Positions 22,307-40,043 of a DNA stretch of 64,000 bases are shown here, piece after piece (the first letter of the stretch is position 1; each line of letters starts with the position of its first letter). The position numbers and the translations under genes are program-made. Under the pieces are notes generated by a model. That model worked only from the letters and a program-made list of their open reading frames with translations. It did no database searches and was not told where the DNA came from. This DNA comes from Parapedobacter lycopersici (GTDB taxonomy: Bacteria > Bacteroidota > Bacteroidia > Sphingobacteriales > Sphingobacteriaceae), in the NCBI RefSeq assembly GCF_024643285.1, contig NZ_JAMSLW010000001.1:617239-681238 (forward strand). The letters are read 5' to 3'.

Positions 22307-25300
22307 ATGAATCAGCAAGGTCATTATCTGCACCAGCTTTTCGCGGCTTCTGTCGCCGAACATCAATTAGGTACCGCGATAATTTACCGGGACACTTCGA
22401 TTACCTATGCTGAACTTGATATTCGGTCAACTCAGTTAGCCAACAAAATCATTGTCAACTATCCGGATGACCCTTTCATAGGTATTAGTACAACCCGGGG
22501 TATTTCAACAATCATCGCCGTTTTGGCCATTCTTAAGTCAGGAAAGGCCTATATCCCTTTGGATAAAGATTATCCGGAACAGCGATTGACGCAGATTATC
22601 ACGGATTCACGACTTACGTGTTGTATCGCAATCGATAATGAACGGTCATTTTTCAATCAGTTGGCTATAGCGGTGTTGTCGCCTGATGCAGAAGAAGAAA
22701 GTCATCAGCTGGCCGCATCAAATCAATTCGGCAATGCCTATGTATTATATACATCCGGTTCAACCGGGGCTCCGAAGGGTGTGTTGATGGGGCATGGGGC
22801 CCTGGTTAATTTACTGCAATGGCAAAGCCAGCATTCCACTGCCGGCAAGGAAAGTGTCACTCTTCAGTTTTCTCCGCTGACTTTCGATGTTTCTTTTCAG
22901 GAAATTTTCGCCACCCTTACCACTGGTGGCACCCTGGCGCTGATAGATGATGATACTCGGCTTAATTCAGTTGATCTTTTAACGTTTATTGACGACTACC
23001 GCGTCAATCGCATATTTCTGCCGTTTGTTGCTTTGCAGTTATTGGCAGATACTGCATACCATCATCGCATTTATCCGCAGTCCCTTCGGGAAATTATTAC
23101 AGCAGGTGAACAATTAAAAATCACGGCGCAGCTGGTCAAATTCTTTTCAGCATTGCCGTCGGCCACATTGTACAATCAATATGGGCCAACGGAATGCCAT
23201 GTGGTTTCTGCCCTGGAGCTGACCGGGAGTCCGCAGGACTGGCCCGAGCTGCCATCTATTGGAACCCCGATCGATCAGGTATATTTCGTTATACTGGACG
23301 ACGCACTTCAGCCGGTTCAACCTGGGACGATAGGTGAATTATATATTGGCGGTGCATGCCTTGCTGAAGGCTATTTACATCAGGAGGTACTCACCGCTGA
23401 GAAGTTTATCAACTGGGAACACCAGGGAAATGCAGATCGGATTTATAAGACGGGCGACCTAGTATGCGAACTACCAGACGGCAATTTTGAGTTTCTGGGT
23501 AGAAAAGACCACCAGGTAAAAGTCCGGGGATATCGCATTGAGTTGGGTGAGATCGAAGTCCAATTAAACCGCCTCCCCCAAATCCAGGATGCCGTTGTCC
23601 AGGCTTTCGGCCAGGATACGTCCGAAAAGAAACTGGTCGCATTCCTCATTCCTGCCTCAAAGGACCGGGGACTGGAAGAAATTAAGCAGCAGTTAAAAGC
23701 ACAGATGCCGGCGTATATGATGCCGAGTGCATTCATCTGGGTCGACGCTTTTCCCAAGACTGCCAGTGGCAAGGTAGACCGCAAGGCACTTACATTGCCG
23801 ATACTTAAACGGCCTGATGGCAACGTGCCCTATAAAAATCCGTCCAGTCCGCTGGAAAAACAACTGGCCGCACTATGGGCCGAGTTACTGTATCTCGACC
23901 GTGTTGGGATACATGATAATTTCTTTGATCTGGGTGGGAATTCCTTACTGGCGCAAAAGACGGTCAACCAGCTTCAGCACGATTCAGGACATAAACTTCC
24001 GATTACGAAGCTGTATCAGCACCCGACCATTGCTGCCATTGCCGCCTATTTTGAAGATAAAGATGGTACCGCCCAATCCGTTAAGCGCAAAAGCAGAACG
24101 GTCCGTCAAAATAAAATCACGCCAATTGCCGTTGTCGGCATGGAAGCGGTTTTGCCCGGAGCAGCTAACATCGAAGAATTCTTACAGCTATTGCGTGCAG
24201 GTGGAGAGGGGATCACATTTTTCAAACCCGACGAGCTGGACCCACAGGTAACGGACGCCCTAAAAAAGGATCCCGATTATGTTGCAGCCCGGGGCGTGGT
24301 CAATGATATCGAATTATTTGACTGTGCATTTTTCGGCATATCCCCCACCACCGCCGAGGTGATGGATCCCCAGCAACGTGTTTTTTTAGAATTGTCCTAT
24401 AACCTGCTTGAAAAAACGGGCAACTTATCAGCAAAGAAGGAGCAGGACATCGGTGTATTTGCCGGATGCGGAACCAATCACTATTTTTTAAACAACGTAC
24501 TCTCCCACCCGGACAAGATTGACTTACTGGGAAAACTACCTGTCAGTTATGTAAATGAAAAGGATTACATCAGTAGCCGTACTGCATACCACTTGGACCT
24601 GAAAGGTCCGGCCGTAAGTGTATTATCTGCATGTTCGACTTCTGCCCTTGCGGTTGCCCAGGCAGTTGAGAGTTTGCAATATGGCCATTGTGAACTGGCC
24701 ATTGCCGGAGGCGCTTCCATTCATGTTCCTACGAAAAGTGGCCATATTTACCAAGAAGGTGCGATGTTCAGTAAAGATGGGCATTGCCGGCCGTTCGATG
24801 CAGATGCTACGGGAACCGTTTTTAGTGATGGTGCAGGTGCTATATTATTAAAGCCACTGGACAATGCGCTTGCTGACGGGGATACGATTTATGCTGTTAT
24901 CAAAGGCATTGGGATCAACAATGACGGCAATCGGAAAAGCAGTTTCACTGCACCGAGTTCGGAAGGGCAACGCGCAGCCATCGAAATGGCCATTGCCAAT
25001 GCCAACCTAAAACCAGCAGCTATCTCTTATGTAGAAACACACGGTACGGCTACGCCGATTGGCGATCCAATCGAAATTGAAGGCCTTTCGCTTGCTTTCG
25101 GTGAAACTCCGGAAAAGCAACACTGTGCTATTGGCTCGGTCAAGAGCAATATTGGGCATTTAACGCACGCTGCAGGGATTGCTGGGATTATAAAAACCTG
25201 TCTCTCGCTCTACCATAAACAGCTGTTTCCCACGCTACATTACAGGCGTCCCAACCCGGCTATTAATTTTACCGATAGCCCGTTTTATGTGAACACCACA

Positions 25301-28300
25301 CTCCGCGACTGGGAGCAAGAGCAACGGATTGCAGGTGTTAGCTCCTTCGGTGTAGGGGGTACGAACTTGCATCTAATCCTTGGAGAAGCTCCTGCTACTC
25401 CGGCAAACACCGCTTCGGAACAGCCAGTTGAATTCCGGCGAACAGAACAACTGATTTGCTGGTCGGCAAAATCGGAGGCCAGCATACAGCGTTACGCTGA
25501 CCTGCTTACTTCCTTTCTACGGGAGCAACCGGGAATCGAATTAGCAGATATTGCTTATACATTGCTGAAGACCCGTCAGGATTACAATTACCGAGCAGTT
25601 TTAACCGCAGCCTCCGTTGACGCTTTACTGGAAAAGCTGACGCATCCGTCATTACTTCAGGAAGCTTCAAAGAAACTGGAGCAGTACCTGGATGCGGTAG
25701 TTTTTATGTTTCCCGGCCAGGGTGCCCAATTTGTGCATATGGGCTGGGAGTTATATCGGGAAGAGCCTCATTTCAAAGCGGCTATCGACCGGTGCATCGG
25801 TTTACTTGACCCCACATTTGGAAAAGAACTTTACGCTGTTATTTATCCTGAAGCGGCGGATGAAGAAGCGGCCGAAAAATTGAAAAACACCTATTTTACG
25901 CAGCCTGCTATTTTTATCGTTTCCTATGCGCTTGCCCAGACATGGACCGCCTGGGGCCTCCGCCCCCAAGCCTATATCGGTCATAGTATAGGCGAGTTTC
26001 TGGCAGCTCACCTAGCCGGCGTCTTTTCACTCGAAGATGCGTTAAAACTGGTTACGGCCCGGGCTGCAATGATCCAGAAATTGCCAGCCGGTAGCATGCT
26101 GTCAGTCCGCATGTCCGAATCTGAGCTAAGAACAATACTTCCCAAAGAACTTTCCATTGCCGCAGCAAATGCCCCGATGCTTACCGTTGTTTCGGGAGAA
26201 AAAAATGCCGTAACGGCATTCTCAGCACTATTAACCGAACAAGGAACCGCAAACCGTCTGCTGCATACCAGTCACGCTTTCCATTCATCCATGATGCTTC
26301 CAGCAGTGGCGGCATTTGAGAAAATAGTATCAGAAGTTGCGCTTCATGTTCCAAAAACACCCATTGTTTCTACGGTAACCGGCGAATGGTTAACTGATGA
26401 GGAGGCCACATCAGCCCACTACTGGAGCAATCACATGGTTGCCACTGTGAAATTCGCTGCCGCGGTTGATTTTGCACACCAACAGCTGAATCCGTTGTTT
26501 TTGGAGGTTGGCCCCGGAAACGTAGGCTGTACGCTTGTACAGCAGCAGCTTAAGGCATCACCGGCGATACCGTCGCTGCCTATGCCCATGGCATCAGGCA
26601 AGCAGACTACGATACACCAGGCTGCCGGCAAACTTTGGCAGCTGGGTATTTCCCTCGACTGGTCTGCCTATTTTAACAGGACAGACCGCAGCTTTTTAGT
26701 TCAGTTGCCTACCTATGCTTATAACAAAAAGCGATATTGGCTGACGCCAGCAGTACGGGATCATCAGGCAATGAGTACGGCACCTGCCGCCAATCCACAG
26801 CATAATGAGACACAATCAGTTATCATGAGAAAAGAAATAATTATACAGGAAATCCGGACATTATTGGAAGGGGCCTCGGGGATAGAAATGGGACAGGCTG
26901 GCAACCAGGACAGCTTTTTTGAACTGGGCTTCGATTCCCTACTGCTTACGCAGATTGCTAGTAACTTAAAAAGCAAATTCAACGTACCGATTACATTCAG
27001 GCAACTGAATGAGGACCTGTACAGTCTGGACACGCTGGCACAATACCTGGATGAACAGCTGCCTGCCGAGGCCTATCGCCAGGAAACGGCCACAGCGCCG
27101 GTATCATTACCTGCAACTGCATATGAATCATCCCATACGCTGGCAGCAGCCCCGGCATTTCGGACGGACGCAACCATAGCGCCGCCGCCGAATGGCTCCA
27201 ACATCGCGTTGAACCTTGTTGCGCAGCAACTCAATTTACTCGCGCAGCAAATACAGCTCATGCAGGGGCAGCAGGCCGTACCCGTTATCGCCAGTGCCAG
27301 TGCATCCCCCGCTACCGGCACAACCGCAGTGGCATCACCACCAGCCGTAAACGGCAATGCTACCTCCGATCTGACAGCGGATGAAGTAGCAGCCTTCAAA
27401 AAGCCGTTTGGAGCGACTGCCAAAATTGACAAACACGTCACTGAGTTAAGTGAAAAACAGCTTCAGTTCCTGCAGGACTTCGTTTCAAGGTACAACGAAA
27501 AAACGAAGGCCAGTAAAGATTATTGCCAGCAGCACCGCTCCTACATGGCAGACCCAAGGATTGTGTCCGGATTTAAGCCCTATACGAAGGAGATGATTTA
27601 TTCGCTTGTCGTGAACCGATCAGATGGAAGCAGTCTGTGGGACATCGATGGCAACCAATATGTCGACGCGCTCAATGGGTTTGGCTCCAACTTTTTGGGC
27701 TATCAGGCGCCTGTCCTGAAAGAGGCTTTACTCAGCCAAATTGAAAAAGGCTACGAAATAGGACCGCAACATGAACTGGCCGGAGAGGTATGCAATCTCA
27801 TCTGCTCCTTTACCGGATTTGACCGGGCCGGCCTGTGCAATACTGGCTCAGAAGCCGTACTGGGCGCCATCCGTATCGCCCGTACCGTTACCGGCAAGAA
27901 ACTGATTGTTGCATTCAACGGTTCCTATCATGGTATCAATGATGAAGTGCTTGTCCGGGGAACCAAAAAACTTAAGTCGTTTCCCGCTGCGGCCGGTATT
28001 ATGCCCGAAGCTGTTCACAATATTCTAGTATTGGACTACGGCACCGATGAAGCGCTAAGCATCATCCGGGAACGGGCTGCGGATATTGCCGCGGTGCTCG
28101 TTGAACCCGTACAAAGCAGACGACCCGAATTCCAGCCGATTGACTTTCTTAAAAAATTACGTCAGCTGACCAATGATAATGGCTTATTATTGATTTTTGA
28201 CGAAGTAATCACCGGTTTCCGCATGCATCCCGGTGGTGCACAGGCACTATTCGGGGTTAAGGCAGATTTAGCGACTTATGGAAAAGTGATTGGTGGTGGA

Positions 28301-28954
28301 TTATCCATTGGTGCTATTGCCGGAAAAAGCACCTATATGGATGCGCTGGATGGCGGTTTCTGGCAATATGGGGATGCGTCGGTTCCAGAGGTTGGGGTGA
28401 CCTACTTCGCTGGAACTTTTGTCCGGCATCCATTGGCACTGGCCACTGCCTGGGCCACGCTGAATTATTTAAAAACACAGGGACCCGCATTGCAGGAGAG
28501 CCTAAATGCGAAAACACAGCACATGGTAGAGACCATGAATACATACTGTATCCAGTTAGGTATACCGGTTTATATTGCCCAATTCGGATCATTATGGAAA
28601 ATTAAATTCAAAGAGGAATACCCCTACTATGAATTAATATTTGCCTGGATGCGTTTCAAAGGTGTACATATATGGGATGGGTTCCCCTGTTTCCTGACTA
28701 CCTCCCATAGCGACAACGATATTGCATTTATTCTTCGGGTCTTCAGGGAAAGCCTGGAGGAGTTGGTGGCTGCCGGCTTCATTCCGGTTACCGGCAATGT
28801 GCAGCACAACGAACTTACGCTGCCGTTCAGCAATCCACCTGTTTTGGGTGCAAAACTAGGGAAAGACAGTCTTGGGAACCCGGCATGGTTTGTCGAGGAT
28901 TCAGCAAATCCGGGAAATTACCTGATGGTCAATTCAAAAGAGGCAGATTCATAG
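22307..28954 (+). CDS. Hybrid NRPS-PKS: A-PCP-KS-AT-ACP-aminotransferase
   Basis: A 2215-residue assembly-line protein without an initial condensation domain, so a loading module. Adenylation domain about 10-500 (LYTSGSTGAPKG near 146; GRKDHQVKVRGYRIELGEIE near 398; GKVDRKAL near 486); selectivity residues read D-V-Q-F-I-A-Q-V-V plus the Lys, close to proline codes. PCP Ser546 (FFDLGGNS). Ketosynthase about 606-1030 with Cys776, His912, His951. Acyltransferase about 1130-1440 with GHSIGE Ser1227 and HAFH 1323-1326, which indicates malonyl-CoA. ACP Ser1544. After an Ala/Pro/Gln linker (about 1590-1700), a class III aminotransferase (about 1730-2145) with DEVITGFR (1965 on) and PLP Lys1993. No KR, DH, ER, MT or TE. 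The tail (GNPAWFVEDSANPGNYL) resembles the linker that normally leads into a C domain. Confidence 0.95.
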   Translation: MNQQGHYLHQLFAASVAEHQLGTAIIYRDTSITYAELDIRSTQLANKIIVNYPDDPFIGISTTRGISTIIAVLAILKSGKAYIPLDKDYPEQRLTQIITDSRLTCCIAIDNERSFFNQLAIAVLSPDAEEESHQLAASNQFGNAYVLYTSGSTGAPKGVLMGHGALVNLLQWQSQHSTAGKESVTLQFSPLTFDVSFQEIFATLTTGGTLALIDDDTRLNSVDLLTFIDDYRVNRIFLPFVALQLLADTAYHHRIYPQSLREIITAGEQLKITAQLVKFFSALPSATLYNQYGPTECHVVSALELTGSPQDWPELPSIGTPIDQVYFVILDDALQPVQPGTIGELYIGGACLAEGYLHQEVLTAEKFINWEHQGNADRIYKTGDLVCELPDGNFEFLGRKDHQVKVRGYRIELGEIEVQLNRLPQIQDAVVQAFGQDTSEKKLVAFLIPASKDRGLEEIKQQLKAQMPAYMMPSAFIWVDAFPKTASGKVDRKALTLPILKRPDGNVPYKNPSSPLEKQLAALWAELLYLDRVGIHDNFFDLGGNSLLAQKTVNQLQHDSGHKLPITKLYQHPTIAAIAAYFEDKDGTAQSVKRKSRTVRQNKITPIAVVGMEAVLPGAANIEEFLQLLRAGGEGITFFKPDELDPQVTDALKKDPDYVAARGVVNDIELFDCAFFGISPTTAEVMDPQQRVFLELSYNLLEKTGNLSAKKEQDIGVFAGCGTNHYFLNNVLSHPDKIDLLGKLPVSYVNEKDYISSRTAYHLDLKGPAVSVLSACSTSALAVAQAVESLQYGHCELAIAGGASIHVPTKSGHIYQEGAMFSKDGHCRPFDADATGTVFSDGAGAILLKPLDNALADGDTIYAVIKGIGINNDGNRKSSFTAPSSEGQRAAIEMAIANANLKPAAISYVETHGTATPIGDPIEIEGLSLAFGETPEKQHCAIGSVKSNIGHLTHAAGIAGIIKTCLSLYHKQLFPTLHYRRPNPAINFTDSPFYVNTTLRDWEQEQRIAGVSSFGVGGTNLHLILGEAPATPANTASEQPVEFRRTEQLICWSAKSEASIQRYADLLTSFLREQPGIELADIAYTLLKTRQDYNYRAVLTAASVDALLEKLTHPSLLQEASKKLEQYLDAVVFMFPGQGAQFVHMGWELYREEPHFKAAIDRCIGLLDPTFGKELYAVIYPEAADEEAAEKLKNTYFTQPAIFIVSYALAQTWTAWGLRPQAYIGHSIGEFLAAHLAGVFSLEDALKLVTARAAMIQKLPAGSMLSVRMSESELRTILPKELSIAAANAPMLTVVSGEKNAVTAFSALLTEQGTANRLLHTSHAFHSSMMLPAVAAFEKIVSEVALHVPKTPIVSTVTGEWLTDEEATSAHYWSNHMVATVKFAAAVDFAHQQLNPLFLEVGPGNVGCTLVQQQLKASPAIPSLPMPMASGKQTTIHQAAGKLWQLGISLDWSAYFNRTDRSFLVQLPTYAYNKKRYWLTPAVRDHQAMSTAPAANPQHNETQSVIMRKEIIIQEIRTLLEGASGIEMGQAGNQDSFFELGFDSLLLTQIASNLKSKFNVPITFRQLNEDLYSLDTLAQYLDEQLPAEAYRQETATAPVSLPATAYESSHTLAAAPAFRTDATIAPPPNGSNIALNLVAQQLNLLAQQIQLMQGQQAVPVIASASASPATGTTAVASPPAVNGNATSDLTADEVAAFKKPFGATAKIDKHVTELSEKQLQFLQDFVSRYNEKTKASKDYCQQHRSYMADPRIVSGFKPYTKEMIYSLVVNRSDGSSLWDIDGNQYVDALNGFGSNFLGYQAPVLKEALLSQIEKGYEIGPQHELAGEVCNLICSFTGFDRAGLCNTGSEAVLGAIRIARTVTGKKLIVAFNGSYHGINDEVLVRGTKKLKSFPAAAGIMPEAVHNILVLDYGTDEALSIIRERAADIAAVLVEPVQSRRPEFQPIDFLKKLRQLTNDNGLLLIFDEVITGFRMHPGGAQALFGVKADLATYGKVIGGGLSIGAIAGKSTYMDALDGGFWQYGDASVPEVGVTYFAGTFVRHPLALATAWATLNYLKTQGPALQESLNAKTQHMVETMNTYCIQLGIPVYIAQFGSLWKIKFKEEYPYYELIFAWMRFKGVHIWDGFPCFLTTSHSDNDIAFILRVFRESLEELVAAGFIPVTGNVQHNELTLPFSNPPVLGAKLGKDSLGNPAWFVEDSANPGNYLMVNSKEADS

Positions 28955-29131
28955 AATCGTCTCATTACCCTAAATGTGCTATCTTTATTGTCCATTTTCG
29001 GACCAGGCAGCCGCAGGTAATGCCAGCCGCGGAATTACCGGGGAACCGGTCCGCTCCGGCTGACGCACCGGGGGTCTGGCTGAGCGGTAACGAAGCTGTT
29101 TATGTATACCGAAACTGAAATTTAACAGGAC
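28955..29131. other. Short gap between synthetase and PPTase genes
   Basis: 177 bases with no gene and no terminator-like hairpin with a T-tract. A TATCTTTA near 28980 is one base off the -7 consensus. Read-through from the synthetase gene into the PPTase gene is plausible. Confidence 0.4.
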
Positions 29132-29911
29132 ATGTCAATTGGAGGTGCCACAGACTGCGATATGATCACCAATCATTCGATCATCACCCCGCAGTGGGCA
29201 GTCATTCCATTAGAAGAAGCCGATCGTATACCGCATCCGGCGGTGTTGTGTACAACGATTCGTGTCGAGAGTGATGTTGTCCAGGACCTTTTTCAGGCGC
29301 TCCTTCCGGATGAACAGCAGCGCGCGTTGCGCTTCCGGCAAACCGAGGACCGTTTACGGTTTATTATCGGGAGGGCGCTATTACGTAAACTGCTGAACAG
29401 TTATACACACCAGAGACTGGAAAATATACCTTTCCAGCATGACGCTTATGGTAAACCCGCGCTGGCCCCACATTTTAATGCCCCTCAGTTTAACCTCGCA
29501 CATGCGGGTGACTATGTGGTCATTGGATTGGATGCACATCCTATAGGTATTGATATCGAGTATCTCAATCCTCATTTTGATTTTAACACCTTGCTACCCG
29601 CGAACTTTTCAGCCGAAGAAATCCGACATATACAGGACGCTTCATCGCCATACAGCAATTTTTATCTACTATGGACACGGAAAGAAGCTTTTTTAAAGCA
29701 TATTGGCTACGGTCTAACCCAATCGCCTATACATGTACCTGCGTTGCAGGGCACCCATCCGCTCCAGCATCGTTTCGGTACAGACGACAGGACGAAACAC
29801 CATTACCATTCCCATAGCTGCTATTTAACCGACTCAAATCACCTCCTAAGTATTTGCCTGAACAATTCGGATGGTCACTCCCCTGCTTTTTATGAAATAC
29901 AGTTACCGTAA
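29132..29911 (+). CDS. 4'-phosphopantetheinyl transferase (Sfp type)
   Basis: A 259-residue enzyme predicted to activate carrier proteins by moving phosphopantetheine from CoA to the PCP/ACP serine. Family blocks: RFIIGRALLRKLL (about 73-86), the Mg2+-binding PIGIDIEYLNP (about 136-146) and YLLWTRKEAFLKHIGYGL (about 177-194), the WxxKEAxxK signature. The length suits the Sfp/Gsp group that serves secondary-metabolite synthetases rather than AcpS. ATG 29162 is an alternative start. It lies directly behind the hybrid synthetase on the same strand, so it is most likely its dedicated activator. The last nine bases overlap the convergent GT2 gene. Confidence 0.92.
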   Translation: MSIGGATDCDMITNHSIITPQWAVIPLEEADRIPHPAVLCTTIRVESDVVQDLFQALLPDEQQRALRFRQTEDRLRFIIGRALLRKLLNSYTHQRLENIPFQHDAYGKPALAPHFNAPQFNLAHAGDYVVIGLDAHPIGIDIEYLNPHFDFNTLLPANFSAEEIRHIQDASSPYSNFYLLWTRKEAFLKHIGYGLTQSPIHVPALQGTHPLQHRFGTDDRTKHHYHSHSCYLTDSNHLLSICLNNSDGHSPAFYEIQLP

Positions 29912-31084
29912 TTCCGTTTTCCGTTTTGATTTTTCCCAGGCTGCGGCCTGGTTTCCCCTCAAGTAACGGAATATTCCGGCAATAACAGCGTAGTTCATCA
30001 GGCAAAAGTAATACGGTATAAAAAACAGCTTAATGCGCAGCTGGCGGCCTTCCAGCAGCCAACCGATAACCGCCATCCCGTAAAAAAGAAGCTGCATTGC
30101 AAACAAGGTAACATATACCGTTCCTGTACCTTCCGCAACCATAACTCCGTTCAGTATAAAAATCAACGGCAGTAAGAAAGGTACGATAGTCCACCGCAAT
30201 ACCCGATGGCTAATATATTGAAACGTCAGCAACGGATAGAAAAAAGGATTAGCGGCTTTAGGTAGCCGCAATATGGATTGTAGCCCCCCTGCTGCTATTC
30301 TAATCTTTCTTTTTAACTCTTCCGATGTGTTTTCCGATGCAGTTTCCATCGCATAGGCTGCCGGCTCGTAAGCGATGATGAATCCCTTTTCAGCGATACG
30401 CATCGCGATCATGTGATCATCGATAATGGTGTCCGTTTCCACAGGCGGGTAAAGCGCCGTACGGATACTGAACAATTCGCCGGCTGCACCCACATTAGAA
30501 TAAAAGGCATAGTCAAGCTTCTTTAATTTGGATTCATATTTCCAGTAGAACCCTTCCCCTGCTGCGCTCGCATCGGCAGTTCGATCGACTTTAATTCGCT
30601 TTTCACCGGCGACAGCACCGACCTTCGGATTTTGATAATGCTTGACCAACTGCTTGACTGCTTCCGGATTCAGGAAGGTATTTCCATCCGTAAAAATCGT
30701 GATCTCGCCCTGTACATGCGTCATCGCACGTTTAATGGCAGCCATTTTTCCCCGGCGTTCAGGCTGATGCAGCAATGTAATACTTGAATAACCGCCTACA
30801 ATGGCCGGTGTGTCGTCATCGGAACCATCCGTTATAAAAATAAGTTGTAACCGTTCTTCCGGGTAGTCCAGGTCAAGCGTGTTCTCTATTTTAGCACCAA
30901 TAATGTCAGCCTCGTTGTAAGCGGCCACGAGTAAGGTCACCGTAGGATATACAGATGACGCATCATTTATAGGGTAGGAAGATACCAAAGCACGTTTTAG
31001 CTTAACAAGCAGATATAAGACGACGCCATAACCGACAAAGGCGTAACACACAATACCGATGGCCAGCCAGAAGAGAATCGCCAT
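29903..31084 (-). CDS. Membrane GT2 glycosyltransferase
   Basis: A 393-residue enzyme with an N-terminal transmembrane helix (FWLAIGIVCYAFVGYGVVLYLL), a GT-A domain (about 45-285) and three or four C-terminal helices (about 290-380). Motifs: VAAYNEADII, FITDGSDDDT, FTDGNTFLNPEAV (DxD-like), EGFYWKYESKLKK and DDHMIAMRIAEKGF, with RKIRIAAGGLQSI in the place of the QxxRW region. This layout is like membrane GT2 enzymes that build or extend exopolysaccharide. It forms a one-base TAATG overlap with the upstream GT2 gene, so the two are coupled, and it overlaps the PPTase gene tail to tail by nine bases. Confidence 0.9.
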   Translation of the reverse strand: MAILFWLAIGIVCYAFVGYGVVLYLLVKLKRALVSSYPINDASSVYPTVTLLVAAYNEADIIGAKIENTLDLDYPEERLQLIFITDGSDDDTPAIVGGYSSITLLHQPERRGKMAAIKRAMTHVQGEITIFTDGNTFLNPEAVKQLVKHYQNPKVGAVAGEKRIKVDRTADASAAGEGFYWKYESKLKKLDYAFYSNVGAAGELFSIRTALYPPVETDTIIDDHMIAMRIAEKGFIIAYEPAAYAMETASENTSEELKRKIRIAAGGLQSILRLPKAANPFFYPLLTFQYISHRVLRWTIVPFLLPLIFILNGVMVAEGTGTVYVTLFAMQLLFYGMAVIGWLLEGRQLRIKLFFIPYYFCLMNYAVIAGIFRYLRGNQAAAWEKSKRKTELR

Positions 31085-31995
31085 TATCGAATTAATTTAA
31101 ATCCCAAATCGTAACTATCCGTTGCGTGTGTCATATTCCACCAAACTCCCTTATAATGCCACTTGATCAAATCGAATCGTCTTTTTGCTATATATACTAA
31201 GGCCTGCTTTGTTGAAGCAATAAGTAAAAAGAAGAGCGAAAAACACCCTATTGCCAGCCAACCGGCATTTTTACGAATAAATAGCATTCTATTCCGTGCC
31301 ATAAAATAAGTCTTTATCGGGGTCTCCTTGCCCACGCTTACTGACTCTTTGTGGTATACATGGGCAGCACCGCAAAACCAGCATTTTAAGCCGGCGCGTC
31401 TGAATTTTTCACCCCAGTCCAACTCCTCATAATAAAGAAAATACCGCTCATCCATCAGGCCCACACAGTCCAGGTCTCTTCTTCTGCACATCATTGCCGC
31501 TCCGTGACAATATGCCGTTTCTTCACAGACACGATCATATTGTCCCTGATTTATCTCTTTACTTCCCCCAGCACTGTTTCTCCCGGTAAAATAATTTATC
31601 TTACCGTAGCCTGCATACTGAATCAGGTCCTTATCCTCATGATACAAAAGCAGCGGCGATACCAGGCCGGCTTCAGGATGATCATCCAATTCCTTTTTTA
31701 ACCGCACGATCAGGTCCTCGGTGATCTCGGTGTCATTGTTTAAAAACAATAAATAATCACCCTTCGCATGGGTAATTCCTAGGTTATTCCCTCCAGCGAA
31801 GCCAAGATTACGCTCGGATCGGACATAGACGACATCAGGCATAACTTCCCTGAAATCAACACCATAATCCACTTCACTCCCGTTATCGACAATGACAACT
31901 TCTATTGCTTCATCCGGTCGGTTTTCCTGTATTGACCTTAACAGGTCGATAGTCACGTCCCGTTGTTTAAAATTAACAGTGATGATGGAAATCAA
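31084..31995 (-). CDS. GT2 glycosyltransferase, rhamnosyltransferase-like
   Basis: A 303-residue enzyme of the WbbL-like GT2 group. Motifs: MISIITVNFKQRDVTIDLL at the N-terminus, VVIVDNGS, RNLGFAGGNNLGITHAKGD, the DxD-like FLNNDTEI (about 87-94), and YFLYYEELDWGEKFRRAGLKCWF near 190, which is the conserved acceptor-side block. The C-terminus has one hydrophobic segment (AIGCFSLFFLLIASTKQAL). Donor sugar unknown, commonly dTDP-rhamnose for this shape. It is the first gene of a two-gene unit with the membrane GT2 gene. Confidence 0.92.
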   Translation of the reverse strand: MISIITVNFKQRDVTIDLLRSIQENRPDEAIEVVIVDNGSEVDYGVDFREVMPDVVYVRSERNLGFAGGNNLGITHAKGDYLLFLNNDTEITEDLIVRLKKELDDHPEAGLVSPLLLYHEDKDLIQYAGYGKINYFTGRNSAGGSKEINQGQYDRVCEETAYCHGAAMMCRRRDLDCVGLMDERYFLYYEELDWGEKFRRAGLKCWFCGAAHVYHKESVSVGKETPIKTYFMARNRMLFIRKNAGWLAIGCFSLFFLLIASTKQALVYIAKRRFDLIKWHYKGVWWNMTHATDSYDLGFKLIR

Positions 31996-32094: not shown

Positions 32095-33810
32095 TCAGCT
32101 GGCTGCCTCCACAAAAATGGGAGTTTCTGTTACCTGAACGTTTATTTTCCCTGCCTGTGTTGAAACTGGCTTTTCGGTCATTTGATTACCTTTAGGATTC
32201 AAATACCGAATTACCGCCTTTTCCGCACCTTTAAGATCCAGTTCATATCCCGCCGTTCTTCCCCGTTCATCCGGCACGTATAATACATATATACTTTTCC
32301 CATCGAGCTCGTACCGATCTACCATGGGGTCATGGTTTAATGTTTCCTGATACCGATAATTTCCCATGAGTCGCCCGAACTGATATAAATAGAAAGCTGC
32401 CGGGCGCCGCTGGTTATAATCCACCAAGCCGGATTTACTGAAAGGCGAATTGGAATTCACACCCGGCCCATCTGTATCAAACAGCTGGAAAAAGAAAACC
32501 CGCTGCACCCCGTGTCTGGCCAGCAGCAACGACGTGCGCAGCAACCAGTCTGCCTGTGTCATAATAGCAGGTTTATCGCCTATTGGAATTGCGCGTTGTA
32601 TACTCTTGGGCCCCAGGTCATAACCACTTTCCGTCATCCACACGGGCATATTTCCAATACTTGCAGCATACTCCGTCCAAGTATCGGCTATTTTCGCCAT
32701 TGGCGTAGTTTCCGGTGCCCTGCCCCGTTGCGTGTTTTTCGTTTCCTCCGTATACCAGGTCATGTTGTCATTGGAGTACATGTGGAAATTAAGTATATCG
32801 AAACATAGGTCGACGCTGCCATCAGCCTTTAAGCCTCGATTTTCCCTGCACCATTCCACCATGTCTTTGACAAACTGAATGTCAGCCCGCGCCAATCCCC
32901 CCATGACTACTTTTATATTGGGGTCTGCGTTCTTTATTCCCACATTCTTACCGAGACGGCCCTGGTGCCCATCGTAAAATGCAGATAAATTCGCAGCATA
33001 GGCACGACCGTTCTGTTCTGCCTGCGGTCCTTTCCACCATTTATCCGGTTCGTTATTGCACTCCACATATTTTACCAGATTTAAGCCGATCTTAACACGA
33101 TTAACCGGATCATTATTCCAGCGGGGTTTATTATTAACGGAAACAAGTGAAGAGTCAACGTTCTTATTGCTACCGTATCGGGCTGCAAACTGAAAAGCAA
33201 AACGACCCATCGCAATGTATGACTTAGGATCCTCGCGATTAGCTCCATATGGTGCAGGAGCATTCTCATTATCCCGCTGATTTTGTGGATAGGTTTGATA
33301 TAACCATTCAGGAGCATTCTTAACGCAGACTAACATGTCGATGCCCTGAGATTTCGCCCACTCATAAACCAAATCATAATTCCAGCTGCCCCGTGCAGCT
33401 GGATTAAACGTATAGCTACCTTCAACGAGCTCCATATTCTCCCAATCGAGGAAATGCCTGACCGATTTAAACGATTTGATTAATGGGATATGTGGCTCGT
33501 AAATTTTTTCAATTTCATTTAGGTCATTTGGATTCTGTAAAAAATCCCATTCAAACGCATTTATTCCGATTAAATCATTTACCTTTACTGGGATGTACGT
33601 ACGCGTGCTGACCGCTGTTTCGAGCAGATTTTCACCTGAATCTACATGGTGTTCAACCGTGTCCGCGATTGCGGAGCCAACAATATCAGATTCAATATCG
33701 GTGGTGTCTGTGGTTTGGTTTTGCGATTGATCACTTGCACACGCATATACAAGCAATGATAAAGCGAGATACAAGCCATATCTCATTGGGTTCAGTTTTT
33801 TTCTCTTCAT
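32095..33810 (-). CDS. Lipoprotein glycoside hydrolase (clan GH-A, GH39-like), paralogue 1
   Basis: A 571-residue surface or periplasmic lipoprotein from ATG 33810: KLNPMRYGLYLALSLLVYAC gives a signal peptide ending in a lipobox Cys, whereas the longer frame upstream starts in non-coding sequence. The mature part is a TIM-barrel glycosidase with acid/base E254 in YVECNNEPDKWW and nucleophile E394 in VWMTESGYD, the spacing of clan GH-A retaining enzymes; xylosidase, glucanase or exopolysaccharide-specific activity are possible. IGINAFEW near the start and PNIKVVMGGLA are shared with the divergent neighbour at 34004, so the two are paralogues. It is probably involved in trimming or degrading the locally produced polysaccharide. 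Confidence 0.82.
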   Translation of the reverse strand: MKRKKLNPMRYGLYLALSLLVYACASDQSQNQTTDTTDIESDIVGSAIADTVEHHVDSGENLLETAVSTRTYIPVKVNDLIGINAFEWDFLQNPNDLNEIEKIYEPHIPLIKSFKSVRHFLDWENMELVEGSYTFNPAARGSWNYDLVYEWAKSQGIDMLVCVKNAPEWLYQTYPQNQRDNENAPAPYGANREDPKSYIAMGRFAFQFAARYGSNKNVDSSLVSVNNKPRWNNDPVNRVKIGLNLVKYVECNNEPDKWWKGPQAEQNGRAYAANLSAFYDGHQGRLGKNVGIKNADPNIKVVMGGLARADIQFVKDMVEWCRENRGLKADGSVDLCFDILNFHMYSNDNMTWYTEETKNTQRGRAPETTPMAKIADTWTEYAASIGNMPVWMTESGYDLGPKSIQRAIPIGDKPAIMTQADWLLRTSLLLARHGVQRVFFFQLFDTDGPGVNSNSPFSKSGLVDYNQRRPAAFYLYQFGRLMGNYRYQETLNHDPMVDRYELDGKSIYVLYVPDERGRTAGYELDLKGAEKAVIRYLNPKGNQMTEKPVSTQAGKINVQVTETPIFVEAAS

Positions 33811-33879
33811 TTTCAGGATGACGTAAAATGCTGGCTTCAAAATAAATAAAGGGCAACACCATACAATATATGTATTGCG

Positions 33880-33887
33880 CAAAAGTA
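33880..33887 (-). promoter_or_regulatory. -7 element of the paralogue 1 glycosidase gene
   Basis: On the minus strand 33887-33880 reads TACTTTTG, matching TAnnTTTG, 70 bases before ATG 33810. No clear -33 TTG was seen. Confidence 0.45.
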
Positions 33888-34003
33888 CATAATAATCTAT
33901 ATTTATTTGGCGTTTTGTTAGAATATAATATATAAACGAATGACAGAAGGTGGTCCCTTTTAAAACCATAAATAAAAATCTATACTTAACCTAATTTCAT
34001 CTC

Positions 34004-35602
34004 ATGAAACCCCGAAAACATTTCAACCTTGCCTCGTATAATTTCCCGCTGTTACTGTCTTGCTTCCTAATTATTTTTTTAGCTAGCTGTAATAAAAAAC
34101 GTGAAAATTTTATTGAAGGTGACAGCTCTCCAGAAACTTCTGATAGGACCTCCATAACCATGGATGGGTTCATCGGCGCAAATGCATTCGTTGATGATCC
34201 CGTGGAAAGAATGGAAGCGCTTGGATTCATCAGGGAGTATCATTTATGGCAATGGGACGAAGGAAATGGTGATCCTTCCTATAATGGCTATCCCGACAAC
34301 GAGATGCAGTGGTCTCCGAATCTGGTCGGCTGGGATTTTGACCAGTTTTACCGGACAATCCATGATCATAAGCTCGACATTGTCCCATGCCTGCACGGGG
34401 CCGCCCCCTGGCTACAAAACCAGCAGAACCGTTTCCCTACGAACGACAAACCAACCGATCAAGCTTCAGCCAACACCAAAGATCCCCGTTCATATCTTGC
34501 CAGATCACATTATCTCTATCAGTTTGCCGCACGGTATGGCTCGCAACAGGTTGATCCCTCCGTCTTAACGCTGCATTCCGGTCAACCGGCACTTTCGGGT
34601 CTAAACCTGGTCCGTTACCTGGAAGACTGGAATGAGCAGGATCGCAATTGGGAGGGTCCTAACGCACAGTTTTCGCCCGAAGAATACGCAGCGATGCTAA
34701 GTGCCGACTACGATGGACATGGTCAACAATTAGGGAGTGGAGGAAAAGGTACTTTTGGGGTAAAAAATGCAGACCCCAATATGAAAGTAGTCATGGGCGG
34801 ACTAGCCAGCGTTGATGTTAATTATATAGAAAAAATGCGAGCCTGGTTTCATGATAACCGTGCCGATCAGAAATTTGCAGCTGACGTGATCAACGTACAC
34901 ATCTATGCCTGGAAAAACGGCTACAATCATCAGGGAGGAGGTCCGGCACTCAGTCCTGAAGAAGCCCAATTTAAGGAAAAATTACAGGCGCTGACGGATT
35001 ATCGAGACAAACATTTGGAAAGTCTGGAGGTATGGGTGTCCGAGTTCGGATGGGACACGCACGAGGGATCCGTACTGAGCCCGCCGATTATCGGACAGTT
35101 CGACCGTCAGGAAGTACAGGCACAGTGGCTGCTCAGGGCTTATTTAGCCTTCGCTGCTGCCGGAGTTGACCGTGCTCAGATGTATATGCTAAGGGACGTT
35201 GACCCAAATAATCCGCAGTGGTTTTCAACTTCGGGATTAGTTACCCAGAAAGGGGAATGGACACCAAAGAAATCGTGGTATTACGTATATACCATGAAAA
35301 ATACATTAACCAATATGCAGTTTGCGGGGGAGGTTAAAGCAAATGATGATAATATTTTGATTTACAAGTTTAAAGACACATCATCTGATCGTGGGGTTTA
35401 TGCAATATGGGCAAAAACGAGCCGGGGCTATACAGCTACTAATTATGTTTTACCGATAAAGGGCGCCAAAACTGCACAAGCCATTGAACCAACACCCAAC
35501 AGTACCGATGGGAAACACACCACGTTAGCTGTTGCAAATGAAACGGTACAGATTAACGTCTCGGAAAAGCCGTTATTTATAAGTGTTGATTTTATTGAAT
35601 AG
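34004..35602 (+). CDS. Lipoprotein glycoside hydrolase (clan GH-A-like), paralogue 2
   Basis: A 532-residue lipoprotein with signal FPLLLSCFLIIFLASC (lipobox Cys about residue 28) and a TIM-barrel glycosidase domain. Shared features with the divergent paralogue are FIGANAF near residue 55, QFAARYGS, GVKNADPNMKVVMGGLAS, and a C-terminal beta domain ending VSEKPLFISV. The acid/base is E211 in EDWNEQDRNW, where the usual Pro after Asn-Glu is replaced by Gln; the nucleophile is E347 in VWVSEFGWD. Both catalytic acids are thus present, so the protein should be active. Its position beside the second synthetase gene and the exopolysaccharide locus suggests a role with the locally made glycan. Confidence 0.8.
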   Translation: MKPRKHFNLASYNFPLLLSCFLIIFLASCNKKRENFIEGDSSPETSDRTSITMDGFIGANAFVDDPVERMEALGFIREYHLWQWDEGNGDPSYNGYPDNEMQWSPNLVGWDFDQFYRTIHDHKLDIVPCLHGAAPWLQNQQNRFPTNDKPTDQASANTKDPRSYLARSHYLYQFAARYGSQQVDPSVLTLHSGQPALSGLNLVRYLEDWNEQDRNWEGPNAQFSPEEYAAMLSADYDGHGQQLGSGGKGTFGVKNADPNMKVVMGGLASVDVNYIEKMRAWFHDNRADQKFAADVINVHIYAWKNGYNHQGGGPALSPEEAQFKEKLQALTDYRDKHLESLEVWVSEFGWDTHEGSVLSPPIIGQFDRQEVQAQWLLRAYLAFAAAGVDRAQMYMLRDVDPNNPQWFSTSGLVTQKGEWTPKKSWYYVYTMKNTLTNMQFAGEVKANDDNILIYKFKDTSSDRGVYAIWAKTSRGYTATNYVLPIKGAKTAQAIEPTPNSTDGKHTTLAVANETVQINVSEKPLFISVDFIE

Positions 35603-35794
35603 CCGTTACCAATTTACGGGGAAATGTGATGTTTACGAGTCTGAAGACTACGCCTTCGCGATAAGGATCTTCTTTATTTTGGAGTGTTGGAGATACTATT
35701 TTGAGCAACTAAAAATCAGTTCTTCTATTTTCACCGTTGAATATCCGGGTTATCCAAAAAAAATGAGGGTTATCACTGTCGGCAGCAAAGCTCC

Positions 35795-35827
35795 TTGTCA
35801 TAAATTTCAAAGAAATGTTTACATTTG
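35795..35827 (+). promoter_or_regulatory. Candidate promoter upstream of the NRPS gene
   Basis: TTG (35795-35797) and TACATTTG (35820-35827), spacer 22 bases, slightly long for the Bacteroidota consensus. Transcripts would start near 35835 and carry a leader of about 180 bases. Confidence 0.5.
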
Positions 35828-35851
35828 CCGTGGAGCAATTATACGCCCATT

Positions 35852-35917
35852 ATGGAAACCTTAACCTCTCAAATTGAACCCATTGATGAAACCAGACTTG
35901 ATTGCGTTGAAAAATAG
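35852..35917 (+). CDS. Possible 21-residue leader peptide
   Basis: ATG 35852 opens a 21-codon frame reading METLTSQIEPIDETRLDC and ending VEK before TAG. It lies about 18 bases after the predicted transcription start, so it would be the first frame on the NRPS transcript. It is acidic and hydrophilic with one Cys. It may be a regulatory leader or a chance frame; nothing in its sequence decides. Confidence 0.2.
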   Translation: METLTSQIEPIDETRLDCVEK

Positions 35918-36017
35918 ATCAGCAGCTCGTGAAAATAAATTGGATAAATAAAAAAGCAATGTTTAAAGCGTTAGAAACAGGGATTATTTGCAAATAAAAA
36001 AACAGACTTCATAAACC

Positions 36018-39000
36018 ATGATTGATCATTTACTAAGTCCAGTAGATTTTGATCCTTTTGCAGGCCCTACAATAGAAAAAGTAGTTCCCCTTACTGAATC
36101 ACAGCAGGAAATCTGGTTGTCTTGTGTGCTCGGTGGAACGGATGCTAACCTTGCTTACAATGAGTCGATTTCATTGGATTTCAATGGAAGTTTGCAGTCT
36201 GATAAGTTTGAGGAATCATTAGCAAAGCTGTTGGTTCGACATGAGTCATTACGGACGTCTTTCAGCGCGGACGGCCGTAATATGATCATTTACACCGCTG
36301 TTCCTTTAAAATTCACATTAATAGACTTAAGTGCTCTACCGGCACAAGGCCAAGCGGTGACCATCGGAGATTTTCATCAAAAAGATGCGGAGACTCCATT
36401 TAATCTCAGCGAGGCCCCGCTCATACAGTTTACGCTGTTTAAAAAAAGCAACACGCAATACCTTTTCACGATCAAGGCGCATCATATTATTTGTGATGGG
36501 TGGTCTTTAGGCGCAATATTGGAGGATCTGAGCAAAATCTATAATGCGAACTTCAACAATACACCGCTTCCAAAAATGCCGCTGGCATACGGCGATTATG
36601 TGTCACATTTATTGGCATTTACAAAAACTGAAGAATATGCCCATACAGAACGCTATTGGCTAGACAAATACAAAAATATTCCACAACTCGCGTTACCCTT
36701 GGATTTTCCGCGTCCAAAAAAACGAACCTTTAAGAGTAAACGGGATGATTATCGCTTAGATAAAGAATTTGTTGGCAAAATCAAGGAGCTGGGTGCTAAA
36801 GTGGGCAGTAGCTTTGTGACGACACTATTGACTGCATATGAAGTGTTCATCCATCGACTTACGGGCCAGGATGATATCGTCATCGGACTTCCTGCCGCCG
36901 GACAGTCAGCTACCGGGCATTTTAGCTTAGTGGGTCATTGCGTCAATTTACTTCCCATTAAAAGTGAGATGAACAGCCAGGCATCGTTCCTGGAACATTT
37001 AAAGCGCCGTAAATCAGAAATCCTGGATGATTTAGACCATCAACAGGTAACGTTCGGAACACTAATTAAAAAACTGAACATCAAGCGTGACCCATCCCAG
37101 GTTCCATTAGTGTCGCTCGTCTTTAATATTGACATGGGTATGGATACTGGTGTCTCCTTTTACGGAGTTACACATCGCCTGATCTCGAATCCCAGAAAGT
37201 GTGAAACATTTGATATTTTCTTGAATGTATCGGGTGCTGAAGATGCCTTAACGCTTGAATGGTCCTATAACACGCAATTGTTTACACCGGAAACAATTGC
37301 CTCGATGATGAAGCGGTTTACGGGCCTTTTAAATACAATCATTGCCCAGCCGACCATCAGGCTAGCAGACATCAAAATCAATGAGAATATTGAGCAGGCC
37401 AAAGCCACTCAGGAAACGGTCTATCCCTATCCAAAGGACAAACCATTCACAGCATACATTACAGAAATTGCGGCCGAGATGCCGGATAAAACGGCCATTT
37501 CGTTCAATGGAAAAGCAATTAGTTACCATGAGCTGGAAACACGGTCCAGCCAATTGGCAAATTACTTAATTGCCAAAGACATTACCGTTGGAGACATCAT
37601 CGGTGTAGCCATGGACCGATCCATTGATATGGTGATCGCTTTACTTGGTGTGATCAAGTCGGGCGCCGCCTACATTCCATTAGACCCCAATTATCCTGTC
37701 AATCGTATTGAATTCATGTTGCAGGATTCGTCGGCTAAGCTTTTGCTGACCGAATCTAAATACAGCCGGCTGTTTAGCAGCCAGGCGAAAGAATTGCTTT
37801 ACGATGAGCTGATAGCAGGTCTTAACGCTTATACAGCCGAAACACCACAGCCGGCTCTTCAGGGCAGCGATTTGGTTTATGTATTATATACTTCGGGATC
37901 CACAGGAAAGCCAAAAGGCGTACAGATTGAACACCATAATTTGGCGAATTTGCTGCTGAGCATGCAACGTGAGCCCGGAGTGACTGCTGCTGATAAGCTG
38001 TTGGCGCTGACCACAATTTCGTTTGACATCGCTGGCCTGGAGCTCTATCTTCCATTGATATCTGGTGCGACCATGATATTAGCTGACGCTGATATGCGCC
38101 TTGACAGTTATCGGATACTCAATATTGTCAAGTCCGAAGCGGTAACGATATTACAAGCTACACCGGCAACCTGGCGCATGATGCTGGAATCGGGTTGGAG
38201 TCAGCGGTTAGGCATCAAATGTATTTGCGGCGGCGAGGCATTTCCGCCTGATTTGGCCGAGAAGTTATTGGATCTCTGCGATGAAGTATGGAATGGGTAT
38301 GGACCCACAGAAACGACCATATATTCCATCATTAAACGGATAAGACCAAACGAACTCCCCATTACGATAGGTAAACCCATAGCCAATACCCAAGCCTATA
38401 TACTAGATGAAACCTTGTCGCCGCTCGGAATGGGTCAGGAAGGGGAAATCTGCATCGGCGGCGCCGGAGTTGCACGGGGCTACCTGAATCGTCCCGAGCT
38501 CAATGCCGATCGTTTTCTGCCTGATCCGTTTGCCGCTACGCCGGGCACTAGGTTTTACCGTACGGGTGACTTGGGCAAAGTCTTACCCAATGGTGAGATA
38601 CAATGCCTAGGCCGCATAGACACACAGGTAAAAATCAGGGGATTCCGAATCGAATTGGGCGAGATAGAGTATCACTTAAATAAGCAGAAAGGGATCAAGG
38701 AATCGATCGTAATTGCCCGGGAAGACAGACCGGGTGACCAACGGCTTGTTGCTTATTTGTTACCAATAGACGATGGAAAACAAAAATCAATTCCCCAAAG
38801 CGGAACACCTGCTGACAAGGAATCGATCAGGCGATGGAAACAGGAACTTGCGTCCGCCCTACCCTCCTATATGGTTCCGAATGATTGGGTGCTGCTTTCA
38901 GAATTCCCATTGACACCAAACAAGAAAGTCGACCGGAAAGCGCTTCCCAAGCCACCTTCAGCTATTACTTTTGCAGCGGATACAGCAAACGGATCCGCGT

Positions 39001-40043
39001 TGACAGCAAATGAACAAAAGGTATTGGACATTTGGGCCTCCATTTTCAAGACAACAGATATACAGAAGGACGATGATTTTTTTGAGCTGGGAGGGCATTC
39101 CCTGCTTGCGTTGGATGTAATGTTAAAAATTGAAAAGGAAACGGGGGTTAAATTGCCGCTAGCGAGCCTGTTTGAGCATCCGACCATCGAGCGGCTCGCT
39201 ATATTATTAGACAATGAAAAGACGATCAAGTGGGACTGTCTCGTACCGATTAAGCCCGATGGCAAAAAGAATCCGCTTTACATTGTACATGGAGCAGGCT
39301 TAAATGTGCTGCTATTCAACACACTGACTGCACACCTGGATAAAGAACAACCCATATATGGCCTACAAGCGAGGGGTCTTAATGGTGAGGAGGAGCCATT
39401 TACCTCTATTCCGGAAATGGCCGCACATTACATTTCCGAAATACTTTCCCAAAATCCGACTGGGCCATATGCACTTTCCGGATTCTCTCTCGGAGGGTTA
39501 ATTGCCTATGAGATGGCAAAACAATTACTCGAAATGGGGAAAGAAGTACGCATGTTGGCCATGTTTGACACGTTTTCATACGAAACCGATAAATTTCTTC
39601 CGTGGTATATTAAATATCCCAAACGTTTCGGTACATTTAGCATGAAGGTGTTGCATTCGTTTTATCTTCTAGCAAAAGATCCGAAGGATACCGTAGCTTA
39701 CAAATACACGAGCATTAAACGTAGAGTCATTCGATTATATTGGAAGATTACAGGCAAATCGGATGATGTTATTGGCTTTTTTGGGTATTTGAATAAAGTT
39801 GACAAAATTAACAACGAGGCCGTATACAATTATGTACTTGAACCAATTGATTTAGATATCCATGTATTCAGGGCGACAATCCATCGCTTCTATGCCAAGG
39901 ACTTTAAGTACCTGGGCTGGAAAAAATTTGCGAAAAAAGGAGTAAAAATATATAACATTCCAGGTGAGCACAACTTGATCTTTGCGCCACCAAATGATAA
40001 GGATTTCGGCCGGATTCTACAGAAAGTATTAGATGAAAATTAG
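36018..40043 (+). CDS. NRPS module with termination: C-A-PCP-TE
   Basis: A 1341-residue single-module synthetase. Condensation domain about 20-450 with the catalytic HHIICDG (His155, His156, Asp160, Gly161). Adenylation domain about 480-985 with VLYTSGSTGKPKG (near 620), GYGPTETT, GRIDTQVKIRGFRIELGEIE (near 865) and NKKVDRKAL (near 967); selectivity residues read D-I-L-Q-I-G-G-I-Y plus the Lys, nearest by eye to small-residue (glycine-like) codes, low certainty. PCP Ser1028 (FFELGGHS). Thioesterase about 1080-1341 with GFSLGG (Ser1157) and His1318. Its C domain can accept the beta-aminoacyl chain from the upstream PKS-NRPS, whose tail ends where such a C domain would normally follow. Confidence 0.94.
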   Translation: MIDHLLSPVDFDPFAGPTIEKVVPLTESQQEIWLSCVLGGTDANLAYNESISLDFNGSLQSDKFEESLAKLLVRHESLRTSFSADGRNMIIYTAVPLKFTLIDLSALPAQGQAVTIGDFHQKDAETPFNLSEAPLIQFTLFKKSNTQYLFTIKAHHIICDGWSLGAILEDLSKIYNANFNNTPLPKMPLAYGDYVSHLLAFTKTEEYAHTERYWLDKYKNIPQLALPLDFPRPKKRTFKSKRDDYRLDKEFVGKIKELGAKVGSSFVTTLLTAYEVFIHRLTGQDDIVIGLPAAGQSATGHFSLVGHCVNLLPIKSEMNSQASFLEHLKRRKSEILDDLDHQQVTFGTLIKKLNIKRDPSQVPLVSLVFNIDMGMDTGVSFYGVTHRLISNPRKCETFDIFLNVSGAEDALTLEWSYNTQLFTPETIASMMKRFTGLLNTIIAQPTIRLADIKINENIEQAKATQETVYPYPKDKPFTAYITEIAAEMPDKTAISFNGKAISYHELETRSSQLANYLIAKDITVGDIIGVAMDRSIDMVIALLGVIKSGAAYIPLDPNYPVNRIEFMLQDSSAKLLLTESKYSRLFSSQAKELLYDELIAGLNAYTAETPQPALQGSDLVYVLYTSGSTGKPKGVQIEHHNLANLLLSMQREPGVTAADKLLALTTISFDIAGLELYLPLISGATMILADADMRLDSYRILNIVKSEAVTILQATPATWRMMLESGWSQRLGIKCICGGEAFPPDLAEKLLDLCDEVWNGYGPTETTIYSIIKRIRPNELPITIGKPIANTQAYILDETLSPLGMGQEGEICIGGAGVARGYLNRPELNADRFLPDPFAATPGTRFYRTGDLGKVLPNGEIQCLGRIDTQVKIRGFRIELGEIEYHLNKQKGIKESIVIAREDRPGDQRLVAYLLPIDDGKQKSIPQSGTPADKESIRRWKQELASALPSYMVPNDWVLLSEFPLTPNKKVDRKALPKPPSAITFAADTANGSALTANEQKVLDIWASIFKTTDIQKDDDFFELGGHSLLALDVMLKIEKETGVKLPLASLFEHPTIERLAILLDNEKTIKWDCLVPIKPDGKKNPLYIVHGAGLNVLLFNTLTAHLDKEQPIYGLQARGLNGEEEPFTSIPEMAAHYISEILSQNPTGPYALSGFSLGGLIAYEMAKQLLEMGKEVRMLAMFDTFSYETDKFLPWYIKYPKRFGTFSMKVLHSFYLLAKDPKDTVAYKYTSIKRRVIRLYWKITGKSDDVIGFFGYLNKVDKINNEAVYNYVLEPIDLDIHVFRATIHRFYAKDFKYLGWKKFAKKGVKIYNIPGEHNLIFAPPNDKDFGRILQKVLDEN

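Follow-up and report, generated by a model that had tools for sequence, protein, structure and literature searches.

A split nonribosomal peptide synthetase-polyketide synthase pair with an in-line aminotransferase, predicted to build a beta,gamma-diamino peptide and recurrently found near polysaccharide genes

A 64,000-nucleotide stretch of the Parapedobacter lycopersici genome (RefSeq assembly GCF_024643285.1, contig NZ_JAMSLW010000001.1, positions 617,239 to 681,238; hereafter the window) encodes two synthetases that together form a split assembly line: protein 1, a hybrid of nonribosomal peptide synthetase (NRPS) and polyketide synthase (PKS), and protein 2, an NRPS. From their domains and motifs, the two would probably join a proline-derived beta,gamma-diamino acyl unit to one further amino acid, the identity of that second residue being outside this estimate. 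A broader proposal is advanced more tentatively, as one that may well prove wrong: that such pairs across five phyla produce short peptides of the beta,gamma-diamino type whose first residue can be exchanged and which are attached to or co-exported with exopolysaccharides. The two proteins and their domains, comprising adenylation (A), peptidyl carrier (PCP), ketosynthase (KS), acyltransferase (AT), acyl carrier (ACP), aminotransferase (AMT), condensation (C) and thioesterase (TE) domains, are as follows.

22307-28954, plus strand: protein 1, hybrid NRPS-PKS, A-PCP-KS-AT-ACP-AMT, 2215 aa (Pfam, motifs, 16-row alignment)
22346-23773, plus strand: protein 1 first adenylation domain (A1), residues 14-489 by Pfam, Pro-like code DVQFIAQVV(K) read via alignment
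23861-24049, plus strand: protein 1 PCP, Ser546 (Pfam, residues 519-581; motif)
24122-25597, plus strand: protein 1 KS with C-terminal extension, Cys776/His912/His951 (Pfam, motifs)
25700-26557, plus strand: protein 1 AT, Ser1227, motif HAFH, which we take to be malonyl-type (Pfam, motif)
26830-27050, plus strand: protein 1 ACP, Ser1544, limits approximate (second PP-binding stretch, motif)
27596-28672, plus strand: protein 1 AMT, class III aminotransferase, Lys1993 (Pfam; best PDB match the MycA AMT)
36018-40043, plus strand: protein 2, NRPS, C-A-PCP-TE, 1341 aa (Pfam, motifs)
36075-37400, plus strand: protein 2 condensation domain, HHIICDG from residue 155 (Pfam, residues 20-461)
37464-38927, plus strand: protein 2 adenylation domain (A2), code DILQIGGIY(K) by alignment, Gly-like with two unusual positions (Pfam)
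39015-39203, plus strand: protein 2 carrier domain (PCP2), Ser1028 (Pfam)
39273-40040, plus strand: protein 2 TE, GFSLGG Ser1157 and GEHNLI His1318 (Pfam; nearest PDB entry the NRPS TE 7crn, E 2e-22)

Both reading frames are open and end at the coordinates listed. These two domain strings, together with visible core catalytic residues, had been described in an earlier sequence-only reading of the window; Pfam recovered the same strings, and direct reading of the motifs located the residues in both proteins. At E<=0.001, Pfam returned no ketoreductase (KR), dehydratase (DH), enoylreductase (ER) or methyltransferase (MT) match in either protein, and a statine-type (gamma-amino-beta-hydroxy) module, which is marked by a ketoreductase, is not what the window encodes by this measure. 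In the 16-row alignment, where relatives of protein 1 are 48-57% identical to the window row, the KS Cys/His/His, the AT Ser and both carrier Ser residues are invariant in 16/16 rows, and the AMT retains its pyridoxal phosphate (PLP) lysine K1993, T1846-V1851 and D1965/E1966 unchanged throughout.

The AMT finds its top PDB matches in MycA (6kfu and 6kfm, E about 1e-124; 1.2e-124 for 6kfu), in agreement with the earlier description of a MycA-like in-line aminotransferase. The next-best match, a semialdehyde aminomutase, stands at E about 1e-50 (6e-50), and an assignment as aminomutase rather than beta-aminotransferase was dropped on this difference. As in a MycA-type module, a class III AMT is fused after KS-AT-ACP; the fatty acyl ligase starter of such a module is replaced by an amino-acid-type A domain with the equivalent of Asp235. 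For the MycA AMT, which sits at the PKS/NRPS module interface inside one protein, glutamine-dependent amination of an ACP-bound beta-ketothioester is reported in PMC3870968. By homology, we infer that the window AMT aminates an ACP-bound beta-ketothioester as well. Weighing against the proposed chemistry, MycA uses a fatty-acid starter, and the best-matching AMT works in a fatty acyl, not an aminoacyl, pathway.

With these domains, A1 would load an amino acid (proline by its code) onto the PCP of protein 1, and the KS would condense this aminoacyl unit with malonyl-ACP to give a beta-keto-gamma-amino acyl-ACP. In the absence of a KR, the MycA-type AMT would then convert the ketone into an amine, yielding 3-amino-3-(pyrrolidin-2-yl)propanoyl-ACP. 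In protein 2, the C domain would join this diamino acyl unit to the amino acid loaded by A2, for which glycine is the nearest, if weak, call, and the TE would release the chain; with glycine, the product would be linear C9H17N3O3 (calculated [M+H]+ 216.134) or its cyclised form (198.124). The earlier reading had likewise proposed a beta,gamma-diamino unit extended by one amino acid and released by the TE. The domains and motifs, the lack of a KR match and the pairing across genomes described below are observed; the substrates, the action of the AMT on this intermediate, the stereochemistry and the mode of release are what we infer.

Relatives of the system are numerous. Of the 100 genomes searched, 19 contain a full-length relative of protein 1 (the window's own included; genome G068 matched in two pieces), which puts the system far beyond chance. 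These relatives fall in 17/61 genomes of the window's family and 2/39 others in the class, with protein 1 present in 7/9 genomes of the genus, the window's included; at least 13 of 395 evenly sampled Bacteroidota genomes contain a single near-full-length match. From at least 546 loci confirmed in a scan of named loci, 80 were kept, to which all counts out of 80 below refer: 57 from Bacteroidota, 12 from Pseudomonadota, 6 from Cyanobacteriota, 3 from Bdellovibrionota and 2 from Myxococcota. The idea of a lone oddity, implied by the sequence-only reading, was consequently abandoned in view of the many relatives across these searches; the layout is widespread and had been tabulated for Pedobacter heparinus as early as 2013. 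No close match to a characterised cluster or product with this architecture, which would have spoken against that reading, was found in the portions of the literature searched, MIBiG not being covered.

The partnership of the two synthetases is also widely kept, and the possibility that they are never co-conserved does not hold. A C-domain synthetase follows protein 1 directly in 17/19 genomes (the exceptions being the window and G082), and 98 protein-1-like open reading frames (ORFs) were compared, 78 from the 80 loci and 20 from the 100-genome search, 5 of them duplicates carrying another id; in 71, the start of a second synthetase lies no more than 300 bp away, on the same strand. Of the other 27, 7 lie <1.4 kb from a contig end (in one such locus, L127, C-A-PCP is fused to the AMT), in 10 the partner is found at a distance of 0.3-2.5 kb, at times behind a single intervening gene, and 2 are the window's protein 1 and the leading copy of a tandem pair in G008; the remaining 8, which count against a universal pairing, have no same-strand downstream partner in view. 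This pairing also bears on an early cyclisation, in which the gamma-amine would attack the thioester to form a gamma-lactam or, for proline, a 1-aminopyrrolizidinone-type bicycle instead of an extended peptide. Five-membered ring closure is chemically easy, but in the majority of the cases examined a condensing synthetase comes next, and some of these partners carry a further module or a methyltransferase domain, which makes such an outcome unlikely.

Several loci show additional genes at this junction. In Flavobacterium and Winogradskyella loci (L071 16655-17548, L121 16589-17500, L126 16621-17529), the synthetase genes are separated by a gene, possibly for a tailoring hydroxylase, from a cupin/JmjC-type cluster that was labelled from Pfam on its L068 member only. 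In Calothrix/Nostoc loci (L097 16906-18045, L102 17582-18724), the gene separating the AMT protein from the following synthetase encodes a membrane acyltransferase (Acyl_transf_3). The two tandem protein 1 copies of G008 (contig C89, 37237-50490), with Thr-like and Ser-like codes, are placed between NRPS genes.

The amino-acid names given to the A1 and A2 codes rest on specificity codes from the literature, the A2 assignment being uncertain. In relatives, A1 codes read by alignment include DVQFIAHVV, DFWNIGMVH, DLTKIGHIG, DVWHLSLID and DAFWIGGTF, which match Pro, Thr, Asp, Ser and Val codes, respectively. Should A1 load something other than an alpha-amino acid, no vicinal diamine would result, and its specificity is indeed a prediction; however, Asp occupies position 235 at the start of 89/89 codes read for A1 inside protein 1 ORFs, and D194 is invariant in the 16-row alignment. 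Such a substrate appears extremely improbable, and the Asp235 equivalent supports the amino-acid-loading A1 of the earlier reading. The exact residues are less secure: the window's A1 code has Q where the Pro code has H, its A2 code lies off the common Gly-like pattern DILQ[LI]G.[IV]W, and that pattern fits just 35/76 first downstream A domains (41/76 begin with DILQ). A Gly-like A2 in most relatives was dropped as a generalisation on the count of 35/76.

Across 90 A1 codes, including that of the window, 13 classes were distinguished in our grouping, led by Pro-like (43) and then Val-like (14). These classes change 24 times on the tree of the KS-AT-ACP-AMT module versus 13 times on the A1 tree, the minimum for 13 states being 12, and the starter A domain therefore appears to have been swapped repeatedly onto a retained extension module. 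Both trees comprise 93 of the 98 protein 1 sequences (5 duplicates removed), 3 of which yielded no code; a first protein 1 tree held 76 sequences, a motif filter having excluded 17 and the removal of duplicates a further 5. All trees were built with FastTree and rooted for drawing only. Replacing the starter A domain while retaining KS-AT-ACP-AMT would be a natural means of changing the residue that opens the chain.

In the window itself, the arrangement differs from that of most relatives, which counts against the proposed joint assembly line: 7 kb separates the two genes, this interval includes genes on the opposite strand, and the span is not one contiguous unit. The genes in this gap and beyond protein 2 are listed here.

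29132-29911, plus strand: 4'-phosphopantetheinyl transferase (PPTase) (Pfam AASDHPPT_N + ACPS)
29903-31084, minus strand: GT2 glycosyltransferase, recurrent neighbour, cluster in 19 loci (Pfam, clustering)
31084-31995, minus strand: GT2 glycosyltransferase, recurrent neighbour, cluster in 24 loci (Pfam, clustering)
32095-33969, minus strand: paralogue of 34004-35602, 32% identity, no Pfam match (alignment)
34004-35602, plus strand: PslG/GH39-like protein, no Pfam match (AlphaFold pLDDT 65, pTM 0.72; Foldseek best match PslG, E 2.8e-12)
40180-41532, plus strand: Wzx-type flippase, 136 bp past the protein 2 stop codon (Pfam, gap)
48132-56101, minus strand: polysaccharide machinery comprising GT2, GT4, Wzy_C, Wzz/kinase, OEP and an initiating sugar transferase (Pfam)

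The PPTase gene, 177 bp after protein 1, encodes an enzyme that would arm the carrier domains; its cluster occurs in 50 compared loci, some counted under two ids. In G026, the window's sister in the 76-sequence tree, the order is protein 1, protein 2, PPTase and GT2. Because this sister keeps that order and most relatives are paired within 300 bp, a local rearrangement appears to have displaced protein 2 in the window, and a gap as the ancestral state was rejected given adjacency in 17/19 genomes and 71/98 ORFs. The 7-kb gap with its minus-strand genes, and G082, likewise without an adjacent partner, might instead suggest a decaying system or separated proteins that no longer cooperate; however, both frames are open, every core motif looked for is present and the PPTase has been kept beside protein 1, and we regard decay as very unlikely. 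A promoter and terminator scan gave no more hits in the window than in shuffled sequence.

The neighbourhood has one feature expected of an exopolysaccharide cluster, polysaccharide genes beside the synthetases. The gene for protein 2 sits between those for the flippase and for the PslG-like protein, one of two divergent paralogues (32095-33969 and 34004-35602). Since the latter protein (34070-35599 in the search) had no PDB sequence match at E<=0.01, it was folded and searched by fold, and the model, of moderate confidence, is nearest to PslG of Pseudomonas aeruginosa. PslG is a hydrolase of the Psl polysaccharide. Also beside the polysaccharide genes lies a pair for a GMC oxidoreductase and gluconate 2-dehydrogenase subunit 3 (43087-45388, minus strand), whose clusters each occur in the neighbourhoods of four other genomes as well. 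Upstream of protein 1 (17728-21752, minus strand) are genes for a 7TMR-DISM histidine kinase, a 233-aa protein and a ThiF-domain protein that resembles, below the model cut-off, the N-terminal half of the Rv1355c family.

The exopolysaccharide context noted earlier for the window recurs in relatives. With six HMMs seeded from the window's own genes (GT2, GT4, Wzx, Wzy, Wzz and initiating transferase), a core gene was detected in 44/80 family loci, 1/20 random stretches and 5/34 other NRPS/PKS loci (44/80 vs 5/34, p 6.5e-5), and tagged proteins numbered 98/895, 2/298 and 13/271, respectively; at least two core genes were found in 27/80 family versus 2/34 other NRPS/PKS loci (p 0.0018). An earlier tagging (49/80 loci) drew on 13 seeds from ten classes, of which four had been picked once the neighbours were known; the core figures omit those four classes. 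Same-strand runs (gaps <=200 bp) hold a core gene for 13/78 protein 1 genes versus 9/303 random genes, the gene-level counts covering 78 loci as the ORF caller missed protein 1 in L096 and L129, and spurious ORFs being likely in high-GC loci. The clearest run, in Algoriphagus (L106), reads in one direction through protein 1, protein 2, PPTase, a 271-aa gene, Wzz/kinase, Wzx, GT11, a further gene and a weak Wzy_C match below Pfam's cut-off. In Rhodanobacter (L112), a GT2 gene is next in the protein 1 run, and in Mucilaginibacter flavus (L057) and Dyella (L118), same-strand GT2, flippase and other polysaccharide genes beside the pair narrowly miss the 200-bp rule.

Several results weigh against this link. 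With the first 14 NRPS/PKS controls, the comparison was not significant by locus (44/80 vs 4/14, p 0.086) and showed no difference by protein (98/895 vs 12/118, p 0.88); significance by locus appeared only after 20 further control loci had been added, once that first result was known. All controls are Bacteroidota stretches of <=20 kb, some cut by contig ends, compared with a median of 29.6 kb for family loci. Of the 13 control matches, 10 come from two loci, both Mucilaginibacter-like, in which Wzz, Wzy, Wzx and GT genes form a run that includes an A-PCP-TE gene. In these loci (L161 9788-18516, L162 3064-11609), the short NRPS gene, whose A-PCP-TE string is from Pfam on the L161 copy, adjoins a gene for a protein of about 1870 aa, alpha-2-macroglobulin-like in the L161 copy. 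Furthermore, no core polysaccharide gene is visible at 36/80 family loci. On the tree, the polysaccharide label changes at least 15 times, compared with an average of 30 across 200 shuffles, none of which gave fewer than 24, and the link is accordingly clade-wise rather than universal.

It is quite conceivable that the pair makes a small peptide secreted in free form, such as a protease inhibitor resembling aminostatine or a peptide that binds metals, with incidental polysaccharide neighbours. The releasing TE and the 36 loci just mentioned fit this possibility, as does the wider tagging, which found no polysaccharide gene at 10/17 Flavobacteriaceae loci, 2/2 Corallococcus loci and the Mucilaginibacter loci L061, L065, L072 and L082; the excess over other NRPS/PKS loci and the tight same-strand runs speak against it. 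A role of the pair with an exopolysaccharide is plausible on this genomic evidence, and delivery of the product to the adjoining polysaccharide pathway, as a substituent or an exported partner, is a real possibility, if one short of probable.

If the proposed chemistry is correct, a large group of environmental bacteria would make vicinal-diamino peptides via an aminoacyl-primed MycA-type module. If the broader proposal is true, the assembly line would be part of the polysaccharide pathway, giving a peptide-decorated or polycationic matrix polymer. Should the polysaccharide link hold, assembly-line chemistry would feed a biofilm or capsule polymer, and positively charged matrix sugars would become genetically testable.

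Compared with known systems, the window shares with Wzx/Wzy exopolysaccharide loci an initiating transferase, Wzz/kinase, Wzy, Wzx, glycosyltransferases and a PslG-like protein, and differs in carrying an NRPS-PKS pair, for which the literature searched offered no description in such loci. Statine- and tetramate-forming NRPS-PKS modules likewise extend an aminoacyl-PCP once with malonyl-ACP; theirs then reduce the ketone by a KR or cyclise, whereas the window has an AMT and no KR match. Like mycosubtilin MycA and iturin-type systems, protein 1 has a PKS module followed by a class III aminotransferase; unlike them, its starter is an A-PCP loading an amino acid, and the C domain lies on a separate protein. 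NRPS-PKS hybrids have been reported in Pedobacter, Flavobacteriaceae and Bacteroidetes (PMC12181424, PMC10734526, PMC9248904), in the main texts of which the word "aminotransferase" does not appear; PMC12181424 also describes a branch of Pedobacter that is amenable to genetics. A precedent is Pedobacter heparinus C6XWU5, listed in Table 2 of PMC3870968 with the layout A-CP-KS-AT-CP-PLP1 and the antiSMASH product Nrp-Mal-Gly-Pk; protein 1 shows the same domain order (A-CP-KS-AT-CP-AMT), and the likeness is one of layout to an in silico table entry that carries no compound. To this architecture, already in print, the present study adds its breadth, the swapping of its starter and its polysaccharide setting.

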